Notes under the pieces: generated by a model
Database searches by the model: none
Seen by the model: only the letters and a program-made list of their open reading frames with translations
Told to the model about the DNA's origin: nothing
From: Clostridia bacterium
GTDB taxonomy: Bacteria; UBA6262; WVXT01; JAUXBS01
Assembly: GCA_030618495.1 (NCBI GenBank)
Contig: JAUXDE010000100.1
Coordinates: 1 to 6,070 of the forward strand
Direction of reading: 5' to 3'
DNA: 6,070 nucleotides
Part shown: one piece after another, positions 1,561-6,070 of the stretch
How positions within the stretch are numbered: the first letter of the stretch is position 1
Layout: every line of letters starts with the position of its first letter
Program-made: the position numbers and the translations under genes

Positions 1561-2843
<1,283 letters not shown>

Positions 2844-2844
<1 letters not shown>

Positions 2845-3137
2845 TGCAAAAACCGTGGGAAACAAACGGCGTCATAAGAAGAATATTAACCCTGAACTGG
2901 GTGGACATTGATGTCCTGTTGGTGAATACTGTAAAAAACACCGTTTTTATTAAGGGGGACCTCAGGTTTAAGGGCAGGTTAATACAGGATGACGATGAAC
3001 CTGCCGTAATCGAGAAGTTAGAGAAAATTGAGGGGATGATAATGGATGTGGACGGGATAGAACATTTGAGATGGGAACTTAAAGACTGGAGGGTGGAAGA
3101 AGGCAAATGGAAAACTGCGCAAAATACGCGGGATTGA
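2844..3137 (+). CDS. Small BON-like domain protein of unknown function
   Basis: The product is 97 aa from the ATG, or 98 aa if the GTG at 2841 is used. Either start overlaps the serS stop codon, so translation is probably coupled. No strong ribosome binding site is seen. There is no signal peptide or membrane segment, so it is predicted to be cytoplasmic. The chain runs beta (DIDVLLVNTVKNTVFIKGDLRF), helix (AVIEKLEKIEGMIMDVDGI) and beta (EHLRWELKDWRV). This order, with an 'xVxIxGxL' strand and a helix ending in a 'DVDGIxxL' turn, resembles a single BON (bacterial OsmY and nodulation) domain, a fold associated with phospholipid or envelope interaction. The match is by pattern only. Its last 31 nt overlap the start of the transglycosylase gene, placing it in the serS operon. 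It is clearly a real gene, given its tight packing and a protein-like composition similar to its neighbours, but its role is not known. Confidence 0.75.
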
Positions 3138-4693
3138 GGGTTGTTCCGGGAGTAATTGTTTTAATTCTTCTTTTTCTGTCGCCCGTGGGCGCCCAGCCGG
3201 ACGGACAGAAAATAGAGTCCTTCAAGAAGATAATCGTAAAAGCGGAGGATTTTTATAATAAGGCGGTTGTGAGTTATGAAAAGGGTGATTCCGAAAAGGC
3301 GGAGAAATACTACATTAAAGCAATGCAGAAACTTTACCAGGCAAAACTTGGCGCTGATGAAAACTACAAATTAAAAGAGGAATTCGATAACCTCTTTGCC
3401 AGGATGGATGGCATTTTACAGGAAATGAACGGGACTGCCACGGCTTCCCTTGAAGTTACCGATGAGGAATTGAAAAAAATTAAAGAAGTTGAGGAAACGG
3501 GCAAGGTGGAAGTGGGCAGGAAATATACTATTCCCATAGATCCTGACGGCCATCTTGTCAGGAGATATATAACGTTATATAACTTTAAAAAGAGAAAAAC
3601 GCTCCAGAAAGCGCTTGAGAGGTCCGGGATGTACCGGGACATGATATTGGGCATCCTGAAGGAAAACAATTTACCGGAGGAACTCATTTACCTGCCGGTC
3701 GTGGAGAGTTTATACAAGGTCAATGCGTATTCACCCGCAAGGGCGGTGGGATTATGGCAGTTCATGTCGAAAACCGGTAGAGGGTTCGGCCTTAAAATCA
3801 ATTACTGGATAGACGAAAGGAAGGACCCGGAAAAGTCAACGCGGGCCGCGGTAAAATACCTGGCTAAGTTATACGAATGGTTTGACGACTGGCACCTGGC
3901 GCTTGCCGCCTATAACAGGGGAGAGGCTGGTATAGGCAGGGACCTCAAATTCTCCAAGGCAACGGATTTCAGCGCCCTGCAGAAAATGAATGCAATTCCC
4001 CTGGAGACCAATCATTTTGTCCCGAAGTTCGTGGCTAGCACAATAATCGGCGATAACTGCGAGGACTACGGTTTTGAGATTGATTTCATGGAGCCGATGG
4101 AATACGACGAAGTTGAACTGAACAAGGTAATAGACCTTGAGGTGATAGCGAAGTGTATTAATTCAACGGTAAGAAAGATAAAAAAACTAAACCCGGCGCT
4201 TATGGCGTGGTGCACGCCAAAGAATTATCCCGGGTACAGGTTGAAATTGCCGGCAGGGACAAAGGAGCTGTTTCAGGCGAACATCGCAAAGGTTAAGAAC
4301 CTGACTCCGACAAGAGGTTTTGTGAAGTACAGGGTAAGAAAAGGCGATGTTTTAGGCAAAATCGCCTCAAAATTCCATACCACGGCGTACGCCATCAAGA
4401 GGAATAACAACATAAGAAACGTAAACCGTATCAGCATAGGCAAAGTGCTTAAAATACGTCCGGGCAGGCGGTATTTTACGAAAAAGAAAAGCGGGAAAAA
4501 AACAACAATCGCCAAGTCGGGCAAAGGATTTGTCAATTACCAGGTAAAAAGCGGGGATATCCTGATGAATATTGCAAAAAAGTATAGCACCACGGTATCT
4601 TCCATAAAAAAAGATAATGACATAAGAAACGCCAATAGGTTAAAAATCGGCCAGGTGCTCATGATAAAACCTGGCAGGAATTACCGGGGATAA
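3107..4693 (+). CDS. mltD: MltD-like lytic murein transglycosylase with SLT and LysM domains
   Basis: The product is a 528-aa exported peptidoglycan lyase. It cleaves the MurNAc-GlcNAc bond to leave 1,6-anhydro-MurNAc and acts in the periplasm. Residues 1-29 look like a signal peptide (hydrophobic core VVPGVIVLILLFL, cleavage after PVGA). A TPR-like pair of helices follows (45-80). The SLT domain spans about 188-320. Catalytic Glu is E200 in LPVVES, followed by SPARAVGLWQFM (209-220) and ALAAYNRGEAGIG (265-277), all canonical. Residues 334-385 look like the degenerate LysM seen in MltD relatives (DLEVIAKCINS, then LNPALMAW, then YRLKLPAGT). Two clear LysM repeats follow at 404-457 and 474-527, identical at about 30 of 54 positions, for peptidoglycan binding. 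The preferred start is the ATG at 3107, with GGAGGG and GAAGG upstream. It overlaps the preceding gene by 31 nt. A TTG at 3134 is possible but has no binding site. Confidence 0.93.
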   Translation: MENCAKYAGLRVVPGVIVLILLFLSPVGAQPDGQKIESFKKIIVKAEDFYNKAVVSYEKGDSEKAEKYYIKAMQKLYQAKLGADENYKLKEEFDNLFARMDGILQEMNGTATASLEVTDEELKKIKEVEETGKVEVGRKYTIPIDPDGHLVRRYITLYNFKKRKTLQKALERSGMYRDMILGILKENNLPEELIYLPVVESLYKVNAYSPARAVGLWQFMSKTGRGFGLKINYWIDERKDPEKSTRAAVKYLAKLYEWFDDWHLALAAYNRGEAGIGRDLKFSKATDFSALQKMNAIPLETNHFVPKFVASTIIGDNCEDYGFEIDFMEPMEYDEVELNKVIDLEVIAKCINSTVRKIKKLNPALMAWCTPKNYPGYRLKLPAGTKELFQANIAKVKNLTPTRGFVKYRVRKGDVLGKIASKFHTTAYAIKRNNNIRNVNRISIGKVLKIRPGRRYFTKKKSGKKTTIAKSGKGFVNYQVKSGDILMNIAKKYSTTVSSIKKDNDIRNANRLKIGQVLMIKPGRNYRG

Positions 4694-4720
4694 ATTATTA
4701 GTGTCAGATAATATTTTTTT
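4694..4720 (+). terminator. Weak candidate terminator after the transglycosylase gene
   Basis: ATTAT and ATAAT form a short AU-only stem (about 4695-4713), followed by a run of seven T at 4714-4720. The stem is weak and the T run is part of the repeated module described separately. It may end the serS operon, but this is a guess. No better hairpin lies between the two genes. Confidence 0.25.
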
Positions 4721-4743
4721 AATATGTCGCATAAGGACGTGGG
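4701..4743 (+). repeat. Upstream module, copy A (before the first NYN gene)
   Basis: This stretch matches 5743-5786, which lies before the second NYN gene. The core (4717-4743 against 5760-5786, 27 nt) differs at only two bases. The upstream part shares GTGTCA and an AT-rich spacer, with one base of length difference. TAATAT at 4720-4725 could be a -10 element, but no good -35 lies 17 bases upstream. From the ATG at 4724 a ten-codon frame MSHKDVGGKD ends at TAA 4754-4756. It is in the same frame as the NYN gene that starts 12 bases later. No ribosome binding site precedes this small frame. The module may be a shared promoter or 5' leader, a recombination boundary, or a remnant of the 5' end of a small gene. 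Confidence 0.85.
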
Positions 4744-4768
4744 TGGTAAAGACTAACGGAAGAATAGA

Positions 4769-5512
4769 ATGTTTAAATCAACAAAAGAAACCATTATAAA
4801 TATTGCTAAATCAAAAGCAAAAGTAATTCAACAACTGGAAGGATTACTTACTGGAAAAACTAATGTTTATATTGATTATGCTAATGTTCGGCCCTGGGCT
4901 GAACGACTACAATGGCATGTTGACCTAAAAAGACTAAAACATTTTCTGGATTCCTTTGACAATATAAACGTAGTATCAATATATTATGGAACTTTACAGG
5001 GTGATCATACTTCACAGAAATTAATTAATGATATGAACCGCTTTCACTATCATGTCAGGACTAAACCTGTTAAAATCATCAAAATACCTATTGATGCAAC
5101 CAGTATAGACACACAATCTCCCGCTTTACTTAAGAGTTTCATTCGTAGTGCATTATTACAGAAATATAATATAGAAACTATCCAGTATTTAAACCGAAAA
5201 TTCGCGGAAATGAACAGACAGGGGATATATTACATTGAAGACCGAAAATGTAATTTTGATGTTGAAATAGGCAGAGATATGGTAATTGACCATGAAAAAG
5301 AAGAAACCGAATGTTTTGTCCTATGGAGCGGAGATAGTGATTTTCATGATCCTATCAAAGAATTGCTGGATACAGGCAGAAAAGTAATATTATTTGCTAC
5401 AGCCAGGGTGGTATCTTCTGAGCTAAATGAACTTAGAAAAAATGGATTGTTTATTTTTGATATCAAGAAAATAAGGGAATTCATTTGTTGGAAAAGAGAA
5501 TTACAACCTTAA
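4769..5512 (+). CDS. NYN (PIN-like) domain predicted ribonuclease
   Basis: The product is 247 aa, cytoplasmic, with no signal peptide or membrane segment. It follows the NYN/DUF88 (LabA-like) pattern of PIN-fold nucleases that cut RNA with bound metal. The acidic residues sit where expected: D36 in NVYIDYANV, D164 and D170 in KCNFDVEIGRDMVID, and D189 and D191 in LWSGDSDF. The usual last strand follows (GRKVILFA, 203-210). An N-terminal extension of about 30 residues (KETIINIAKSKAKVIQQLEGLL) precedes the domain and is predicted helical. The region between about 100 and 150 is a long, mostly helical insert. The start is ATG 4769, with GGAAG six bases upstream. Codon use is much more AT-rich than in the serS operon, suggesting transfer. 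The substrate is unknown. NYN proteins occur in RNA turnover, toxin-like and defence settings, and nothing here chooses between them. Confidence 0.85.
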   Translation: MFKSTKETIINIAKSKAKVIQQLEGLLTGKTNVYIDYANVRPWAERLQWHVDLKRLKHFLDSFDNINVVSIYYGTLQGDHTSQKLINDMNRFHYHVRTKPVKIIKIPIDATSIDTQSPALLKSFIRSALLQKYNIETIQYLNRKFAEMNRQGIYYIEDRKCNFDVEIGRDMVIDHEKEETECFVLWSGDSDFHDPIKELLDTGRKVILFATARVVSSELNELRKNGLFIFDIKKIREFICWKRELQP

Positions 5513-5576
5513 AATGCAAAAGGGACATCATTGAAGATGCCCCTAAGCTTTAAAATTATTGTCATCATAAGATGAC
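5510..5576 (-). ncRNA. Candidate short leftward RNA, convergent with the first NYN gene
   Basis: A transcript from the promoter at 5583-5611 would start near 5576 with a perfect stem-loop and meet a second stem (5544-5521) followed by TTTTGCATTTT. This would give an RNA of roughly 65 nt ending at the NYN stop codon. It also holds a 19-codon frame (5568-5509, minus strand) encoding MMTIILKLRGIFNDVPFAF, but no ribosome binding site precedes it, so it is not called as a gene. The RNA could be a convergent or antisense regulator of the NYN mRNA, or the relic of a longer leader. The ends are inferred from the promoter and hairpin only. Confidence 0.3.
5521..5544. terminator. Hairpin at the 3' end of the first NYN gene
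   Basis: GGGACATC (5522-5529) pairs with GATGCCCC (5536-5543) around the loop ATTGAA, with one A-C mismatch and an added A-T at the base. On the plus strand it lies 9 nt after the NYN stop, but only TAAGCTTTAAAA follows, a poor T tract. Read leftward it is followed by TTTTGCATTTT, a better terminator. It may act in both directions and separate the NYN transcript from the leftward one. Confidence 0.5.
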
Positions 5577-5578
5577 AA
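5559..5578. repeat. Perfect 8-bp hairpin
   Basis: TTGTCATC (5559-5566) and GATGACAA (5571-5578) are perfect inverted repeats around ATAA. The element lies exactly at the expected start of a transcript from the leftward promoter at 5583-5611. It could be a 5' stem-loop that stabilises that RNA, or a protein-binding operator overlapping the transcription start. Confidence 0.7.
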
Positions 5579-5582
5579 CAGA

Positions 5583-5611
5583 AGTATAGCACAGTAGATA
5601 TATTTTGTCAA
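5583..5611 (-). promoter_or_regulatory. Leftward sigma-70-type promoter
   Basis: On the minus strand TTGACA (5611-5606) is a perfect -35, separated by exactly 17 bases from TATACT (5588-5583), a 5/6 match to the -10 consensus. Transcription would start near 5576 and run leftward into the 3' end of the first NYN gene. This is the best promoter-like sequence in the window, and it does not point at any recognisable gene. Confidence 0.6.
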
Positions 5612-5621
5612 CAAATATTTT

Positions 5622-5640
5622 ATATTACGAATTGCGAAAT
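5622..5640. promoter_or_regulatory. Operator-like imperfect palindrome, site 1
   Basis: TATTACGAATTGCGAAATA is an imperfect palindrome that shares AATTGCGA with the stronger palindrome at 5678-5694. It lies about 11 bp upstream of the -35 of the leftward promoter. This suits a regulator bound next to the polymerase. Confidence 0.4.
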
Positions 5641-5677
5641 AGCACTAAAGTAGAATATGAATCTTTTAAATCTTTGG

Positions 5678-5694
5678 TATCGCAAATTGCGATA
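5678..5694. promoter_or_regulatory. Operator-like perfect palindrome, site 2
   Basis: TATCGCAAATTGCGATA has perfect 8-bp arms around a single central base, the form expected for a dimeric helix-turn-helix repressor site. It shares AATTGCGA with site 1 at a distance of 55 bp, close to a whole number of helical turns. No gene for the regulator is in the window. Confidence 0.5.
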
Positions 5695-5724
5695 TTAAGG
5701 GCAGGCAATCCGGTTAAATAAGAA

Positions 5725-5781
5725 GTGCTTATGAGGACCAAAGTGTCAACCAATTATTGTTTTAATATGTCGCATAAGAAC
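5725..5781. repeat. Imperfect inverted repeat enclosing module copy B
   Basis: GTGCTTATGAGGAC (5725-5738) is nearly the reverse complement of GTCGCATAAGAAC (5769-5781). CTTATG/CATAAG and GAC/GTC pair, with one bulge and about two mismatches, around a 30-nt loop. The right arm is part of the shared module. The matching left arm was not found before copy A, so the structure is specific to copy B. Confidence 0.4.
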
Positions 5782-5786
5782 GTAGG
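5743..5786 (+). repeat. Upstream module, copy B (before the second NYN gene)
   Basis: This is the second copy of the module at 4701-4743, 1,043 bp further on and in the same orientation. The ATG at 5767 opens a 17-codon frame, MSHKNVGTTQEKKREII. Its TAA (5818-5820) overlaps the ATG of the second NYN gene by one base (TAATG), an arrangement typical of translational coupling. The two core differences from copy A change D to N and leave V unchanged. No ribosome binding site precedes the small frame, so its translation is uncertain. Confidence 0.85.
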
Positions 5787-5819
5787 CACTACACAAGAGA
5801 AAAAGAGAGAAATAATATA

Positions 5820-6070
5820 ATGCCTGAACAAAAAGATTTATTTAAGCAAAAGAACGTAATAGTTTTTATAGACGGAAGTAATTTTTATCATTCACTATAT
5901 GCTTGCTATGGAATTAATTATATGGACATTCTTAAGCTATCTAAAAAACTATGTAACGCAAACAGAAACTTGAAAGAAGTAAGATACTATTATTCCCCAT
6001 TTATTAAGGAAATAAATCCTCCCCTTTCTGAAGAACAACAGCGTTATATAACAACTATTAAACGTATTCC
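5820..6070 (+). CDS. Second NYN domain predicted nuclease, 3' end outside the window
   Basis: The first 83 codons are present and the frame is open to the window edge. The protein begins MPEQKDLFKQKNVIVFIDGS. VIVFIDGSNFYHSL (residues 13-26) is the classical first strand and metal-binding aspartate (D18) of NYN/LabA-like PIN-fold nucleases. VRYYYSPF (about 55-62) is the expected second core strand. The later acidic residues lie outside the window. The N-terminus is short and unlike that of the first NYN protein, so the two are different subfamilies and not recent duplicates. The start is ATG 5820. The ribosome binding site is weak (GAGAG at 5805-5809), and coupling to the small upstream frame may help. 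The AT-rich codon use matches the first NYN gene. Confidence 0.85.
   Translation, partial: MPEQKDLFKQKNVIVFIDGSNFYHSLYACYGINYMDILKLSKKLCNANRNLKEVRYYYSPFIKEINPPLSEEQQRYITTIKRI

Follow-up and report, generated by a model that had tools for sequence, protein, structure and literature searches.

The window analyzed here, a stretch of 6,070 nucleotides, raises the question of why one short sequence module stands directly before two different NYN nuclease genes. An earlier note on this DNA had described 27-nt cores differing at two bases, with similarity reaching upstream to GTGTCA. We found the two-base difference at 4717-4743 and 5760-5786. A repeat search of the window gave 29 of 32 identical positions for 4712-4743 against 5755-5786, and local alignment extended the match to AGTGTCA (4700 and 5742) across a few mismatches and a single gapped base, which was as noted except for the gap; none of 1000 shuffles aligned as well. 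Copy 1 of the module, GTGTCA plus the 32-nt core, spans 4701..4743 on the plus strand, between the stop codon of an SLT-LysM gene and the first NYN gene (NYN1). Copy 2 spans 5743..5786 on the plus strand, upstream of the second (NYN2). Both lie shortly before their genes, with copy 1 ending 25 nt before the NYN1 ATG (4769) and copy 2 ending 33 nt before the NYN2 ATG (5820).

NYN1 (4769..5512, plus strand) is predicted to encode a 247-aa NYN/LabA-type ribonuclease. The protein scored 52.2 bits against the Pfam NYN family (PF01936), above the gathering cut-off of 24.2. An alignment of 10 NYN1 orthologs (A7) showed six invariant aspartates (D36, D164, D170, D174, D189 and D191), and the conserved active-site aspartates D36, D164, D189 and D191 are among them. 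The predicted structure (pLDDT 86.6) had 2qip as its sole significant fold match (E = 9.8e-7), consistent with an NYN/PIN-like fold. The window holds the 5' part of NYN2 (5820..6070, plus strand). This fragment scored 17.8 bits, below the Pfam NYN cut-off, and its likely continuation on C108 (L025/L129), a second contig of the same genome, passed with 53.3 bits. A comparison of the two proteins, with NYN2 cut by the contig end at 6070, gave no significant match. Thus, a shared 5' element precedes dissimilar NYN genes, in agreement with the earlier note's view that this is not a simple gene duplication. Orthologs of NYN1 with 47-60% identity were present in six Patescibacteria genomes, a remnant was found in a seventh genome (Ca. 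Harrisonbacteria), and a 47% relative occurred on the viral contig IMGVR_UViG_3300025924_000908. The phage and plasmid collections contained no NYN1 relatives.

Positions 4694..6070 belong to a low-GC insertion of about 1.9 kb (32% GC vs. 45% in the flanking genes), which holds both NYN genes, together with the small RNA (sRNA) genes described below, between the SLT-LysM gene and hisD. The site is empty in a genome of the same genus (G001), where hisD follows about 35 nt after the SLT-LysM stop; here 1.4 kb on the contig of the window (C63) and 0.5 kb on C108 separate the two genes. C108 starts with an NYN C-terminus, followed by hisD. The C63-C108 join was inferred from synteny and protein alignment, with the contig ends sharing five bases only, and Patescibacteria relatives align across it. 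Because the site is empty in G001 and C108 runs from the NYN C-terminus into hisD, we conclude that the two NYN genes are, judged by synteny, one insertion. The units also appear to be laterally acquired. In the flanking DNA, an ORF of 98 aa at 2841-3137, between the seryl-tRNA synthetase and SLT-LysM genes, had no Pfam match.

We then asked how far the module is distributed. The second copy has an E-value of 2e-6 in the 1.69-Mb genome, and no third copy was present in that genome, even at up to three mismatches in 20 nt. Among 379 Patescibacteria genomes there were 0 copies at up to three mismatches in 26 nt, and the module was not found upstream of orthologous NYN genes. Viral contigs and plasmids gave no match, and phages gave a single chance-level 29-nt match. 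A search for many copies had been set beforehand as the test of a widely reused leader, a cassette or an insertion hot spot; in these searches the core occurs at these two places only, so the many-copy idea fails, and we rejected a widespread leader or cassette. Within the module, the E. coli matrix detected no sigma-70 promoter (shuffle fractions 0.42 and 0.46), and no RNA hairpin was kept between both copies. A Xer/dif-type site was also rejected, as the module has a XerC-like CGCATAA without a XerD arm and no convincing dif was found in the host.

The main recurrent feature appears to lie beyond the module and was missed by the earlier note: behind each NYN gene is a predicted convergent sRNA gene, made up of a promoter close to consensus, a pair of hairpins and an intrinsic terminator that reaches the NYN stop. 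A promoter scan identified the sRNA1 promoter on the minus strand (5583..5611), consisting of TTGACA (5611-5606), a 17-nt spacer and TATACT (5588-5583), with a TG before the -10 element. The predicted sRNA1 gene spans 5511..5582 on the minus strand and runs convergently to NYN1. Its parts on that strand are hairpin A (5578-5559), a linker with the sequence TAATTTTAAAGCTT (5558-5545), and a terminator hairpin B with a U-run (5544-5511), which ends at the NYN1 stop. Behind NYN2, a promoter of the form TTGACA-16-TATACT begins at C108:16878 and would direct sRNA2, this gene's own version, unlike sRNA1 in sequence. Both promoters are antisense to NYN, with shuffle fractions of 0.002 (sRNA1) and 0.004 (sRNA2). 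No tandem repeats were detected at 4690-6070. Rfam searches of the window (to E = 5) and of 20 NYN loci gave no match at the sRNA positions, returning only tRNAs and one LOOT RNA (RF03000); the latter lies at 2190-2308 of L056, close upstream of an NYN gene, and may be a coincidence. Pairing of sRNA1 with the module (CAUAAG with the CUUAUG loop of sRNA1) was considered and discarded, because it was no better than in shuffles and is absent in the orthologs.

An NYN1-type sRNA was found behind every NYN1 ortholog, with the linker consensus UUCUARAGCUU. We aligned 14 distinct NYN1-type sRNA sequences (A8) and found 95.8% of cells paired, a figure biased towards structure because the alignment was fitted to the model, although a hand-made alignment gave the same picture. 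None of 500 shuffles was as good, and slid controls reached at most 61% paired. Changes on both sides occurred in 14 of the 16 pairs, and one terminator-stem pair was a wobble in all 14 sequences (13 GU, 1 UG). A covariance model (R2) applied to 244 genomes from the order of G060 returned six matches, all adjoining an NYN1-type gene or remnant. A second covariance search, in the order of G089, covered two genomes only and added nothing new. In three genomes (G060, G626 and G620), NYN was broken or deleted while the sRNA and its promoter were intact; three such copies are few, and assembly errors in metagenome-assembled genomes could mimic some of them. The G620 locus (L104, NYN1-type gene at 706-1433) also has its sRNA on the same strand as NYN. 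The gene itself has TGA at three positions where orthologs have Trp and one frameshift, which could reflect decay or a source that reads TGA as Trp.

To ask whether the pairing extends beyond the NYN1 family, we used 50 Patescibacteria NYN genes obtained from two protein searches. A downstream antisense promoter (score at least 12) was present at 27 of the 50, compared with 3 of 50 in the sense direction. When both a promoter and a terminator were required, 24 of 50 NYN genes had a downstream antisense sRNA gene and 6 of 50 an upstream sense one, and controls with reversed orientation gave 0/50 and 1/50. Among other Patescibacteria genes, 3 of 269 were positive downstream in antisense (p = 3e-19) and 6 of 269 upstream in sense (p = 0.005); one of the three positive control genes is itself NYN by sequence (L111 9282-9822). 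The 3/269 and the reversed controls rule out an artefact of compact genomes. These tests were designed after the pattern had been seen in nine loci, and with those nine left out 19 of 41 NYN genes were positive. Neither strict test was passed by 20 of the 50 genes; some of these (for example L039, L042 and L044) have an sRNA by covariance model, below the cut-off, and others seem to be without one. Similarity among the sRNAs tracked similarity among the proteins (Mantel permutation p = 0.001, or 0.0005 with the NYN1 family left out), a pattern to be expected of RNAs that are each matched to their own protein. Taken together, we are confident that NYN and sRNA genes form a two-gene unit, to the extent that sequence can tell.

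Several individual loci deserve mention. At L078, L079, L081, L085, L091 and L094 an sRNA-like gene lies upstream in the same direction, its promoter and terminator immediately preceding the start of NYN, a type III-like order. On a viral contig, an NYN1-type gene with a convergent sRNA (L106, 3974-4831) is accompanied by genes resembling an integrase and a lysozyme, both named by inspection, and by a transposase. In a genome outside the Patescibacteria (G048), the convergent sRNA of the NYN gene at L028 is similar to the one at L056, which suggests that the pairing reaches other phyla.

Returning to the module, 75 nt separate the SLT-LysM stop from NYN1, and the module takes up most of them. 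The control signals of NYN1 therefore probably lie there, unless NYN1 is transcribed from the upstream gene. The case for control rests on this position, since the E. coli matrix gave no sigma-70 promoter within the module, which is known from one genome. We interpret the module as the probable common front end of two adjacent units, brought or copied together; among possible roles we rank a control region first and a junction second. That it is an NYN control region, driving or tuning the NYN gene, we give even chances. The overall reading receives the same balanced weight, namely that two adjacent lateral units, each pairing an NYN ribonuclease with a convergent sRNA gene, have the module in common as their 5' control region. 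The module would have been copied ahead of each NYN gene as the units were brought together.

A direct repeat could also arise at a recombination or junction site, left when one unit inserted before NYN2 or when two units recombined, and we consider this origin possible though doubtful. With a spacing of 1043 bp, the module copies enclose exactly one NYN-sRNA unit (NYN1-sRNA1). Direct repeats also bracket the units at L052 (184 bp, about 97%), L059 (126 bp) and L043 (about 90 bp), and the L052 repeat is the NYN upstream region, adjoining an apparent remnant of a second NYN start. Overall, bracketing repeats (score at least 30) were found at 6 of 43 NYN units vs. 5 of 334 slid controls. However, the excess over neighboring ORFs (3 of 52) was not significant alone, a search of the right end of the insertion for a third copy found none, and the insertion contains no recombinase; the absence of further genomic copies and of a convincing dif-like site likewise speaks against a junction. 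A cassette boundary, as the earlier note had suggested, is possible in that the NYN1-sRNA1 unit has the module on both sides, much as a few Patescibacteria units are flanked by direct repeats; a many-copy cassette fails. Two of these repeats fall at the ends of other genes, a PEP-synthase-like gene at L059 and a small membrane protein gene at L043.

What could the sRNA do beside a nuclease gene? One NYN protein that has been studied cuts ssRNA as a non-specific, Mn-dependent endonuclease (PMC11346440), and, by analogy, this would be the kind of activity that requires restraint. We hypothesize that a sigma-70 promoter of its own drives the sRNA, which would form one hairpin on each side of a conserved single-stranded linker, bind its own NYN protein and keep that RNase switched off. 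If the RNA supply failed, the nuclease would be freed, by analogy with type III toxin-antitoxin or AbiF-ncRNA systems. We are evenly divided on whether the RNA restrains the NYN nuclease. The loci in which NYN is dead and the sRNA intact (G060, G626 and G620) suggest antitoxin-like decay.

Alternatively, the sRNA might control NYN by antisense pairing or convergent transcription in a type I-like manner, without binding the protein. In most units the convergent sRNA has a terminator that overlaps the NYN stop, and an NYN mRNA extended by read-through would therefore carry sequence complementary to the sRNA. Against this, the structure and the linker sequence are conserved, which antisense pairing does not need, and there is no unusual complementarity between sRNAs and NYN 5' regions. 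In addition, the L104 sRNA is on the NYN strand and some units, at six loci, have it upstream in sense, from which we infer action in trans rather than antisense. We therefore prefer direct binding, given the conserved structure and linker and the non-antisense positions, and judge antisense control unlikely.

Somewhat less likely still, the sRNA could serve as a guide or cofactor, turning NYN into an active ribonucleoprotein effector, or could be a substrate matured by NYN. The RNA and protein families co-vary, the conserved linkers are single-stranded, an NYN protein has been proposed to trim crRNA (PMC11346440), and there is a weak PADLOC match to the defense candidate HEC-09. However, no variable guide segment or target is known, and the persistence of the sRNA at loci where NYN is dead is better explained by an antidote; for that reason we prefer inhibition over guidance. 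A broader form of this idea, to which we give equally little weight, is that the NYN proteins of Patescibacteria and neighboring phyla are a large undescribed RNA-protein class, in which a structured sRNA dedicated to each subfamily would act as guide or sensor instead of plain inhibitor, for example in a phage-defense ribonucleoprotein travelling as a 1-kb unit.

The least probable proposal concerns the module again, as a translated upstream ORF (MSHK[D/N]VG...) whose leader peptide acts through translational coupling: an ATG in both copies opens a putative ORF of 10 codons (4724..4756, plus strand, MSHKDVGGKD) or 17 codons (5767..5820, plus strand, MSHKNVGTTQEKKREII), and the second ends on the NYN2 start as TAATG, yet identity is equal through the 12 nt before the ATG and ends after seven codons, the upstream one-base gap fits nucleotide-level conservation, and the ORF is absent from all orthologs.

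We compared restraint of the nuclease by its sRNA with known systems. Type III toxin-antitoxin systems (ToxIN, AbiQ, CptIN and TenpIN) likewise combine an endoribonuclease gene with a neighboring gene for a structured RNA that ends in an intrinsic terminator, are small and mobile, and have an RNA that can be the antidote. The NYN units differ in carrying an NYN/PIN-like nuclease instead of a ToxN-like one, and a single two-hairpin RNA that lacks tandem repeats, is usually convergent and has its own promoter; we found neither a tandem-repeat RNA upstream in one operon nor a ToxN/AbiQ-type fold. The nearest analog is AbiF/Abi_2 with its ncRNA (RCd22, C. difficile, PMC12373285), a predicted RNase with an adjacent, dedicated ncRNA gene, in which the ncRNA binds and restrains the AbiF protein (PMC12373285). 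AbiF, however, has an Abi_2 domain, for which the Pfam scan gave no match, returning NYN; its ncRNA lies upstream, and the RNAs described here have no Rfam match. Type I toxin-antitoxin systems have in common with the NYN units a convergent antisense RNA, which overlaps the protein gene at its 3' end. Their toxins are mostly small membrane peptides in contrast to a nuclease of 200-250 aa, and their RNA is always antisense, unlike that of the NYN units. Other NYN/LabA ribonucleases, such as the B. fragilis CRISPR-associated NYN (PMC11346440) and PADLOC HEC-09, share the domain, the acidic active-site pattern and the 2qip fold match. The papers found on NYN proteins cover Rae1, MARF1 and the CRISPR-associated NYN (PMC11346440 for the last), and in the literature searched, with preprints and most subscription journals outside its scope, there was no report of a dedicated adjacent sRNA for the family. 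The units look most like a nuclease-RNA pair that would act as type III toxin-antitoxin or AbiF-ncRNA systems do while belonging to neither.

NYN nucleases are common in Patescibacteria genomes without a known role, and a convergent sRNA gene of their own, present at about half of those sampled, with a covarying fold and kept where the nuclease is dead, would give them a testable function as RNA-controlled nucleases. It would also extend the known toxin-antitoxin and abortive-infection modules by an RNA-antidote architecture in which the RNA gene is convergent, has its own promoter and lacks repeats. Given their size of only about 1 kb, their movement between phyla and their presence on a viral contig, we consider the units good candidates for defense or addiction modules. 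Finally, the DNA separating unit 1 from module copy 2 contains a perfect palindrome, TATCGCAAATTGCGATA (5678..5694), which is a possible operator for NYN2 and has a related half-site in the vicinity of 5630.
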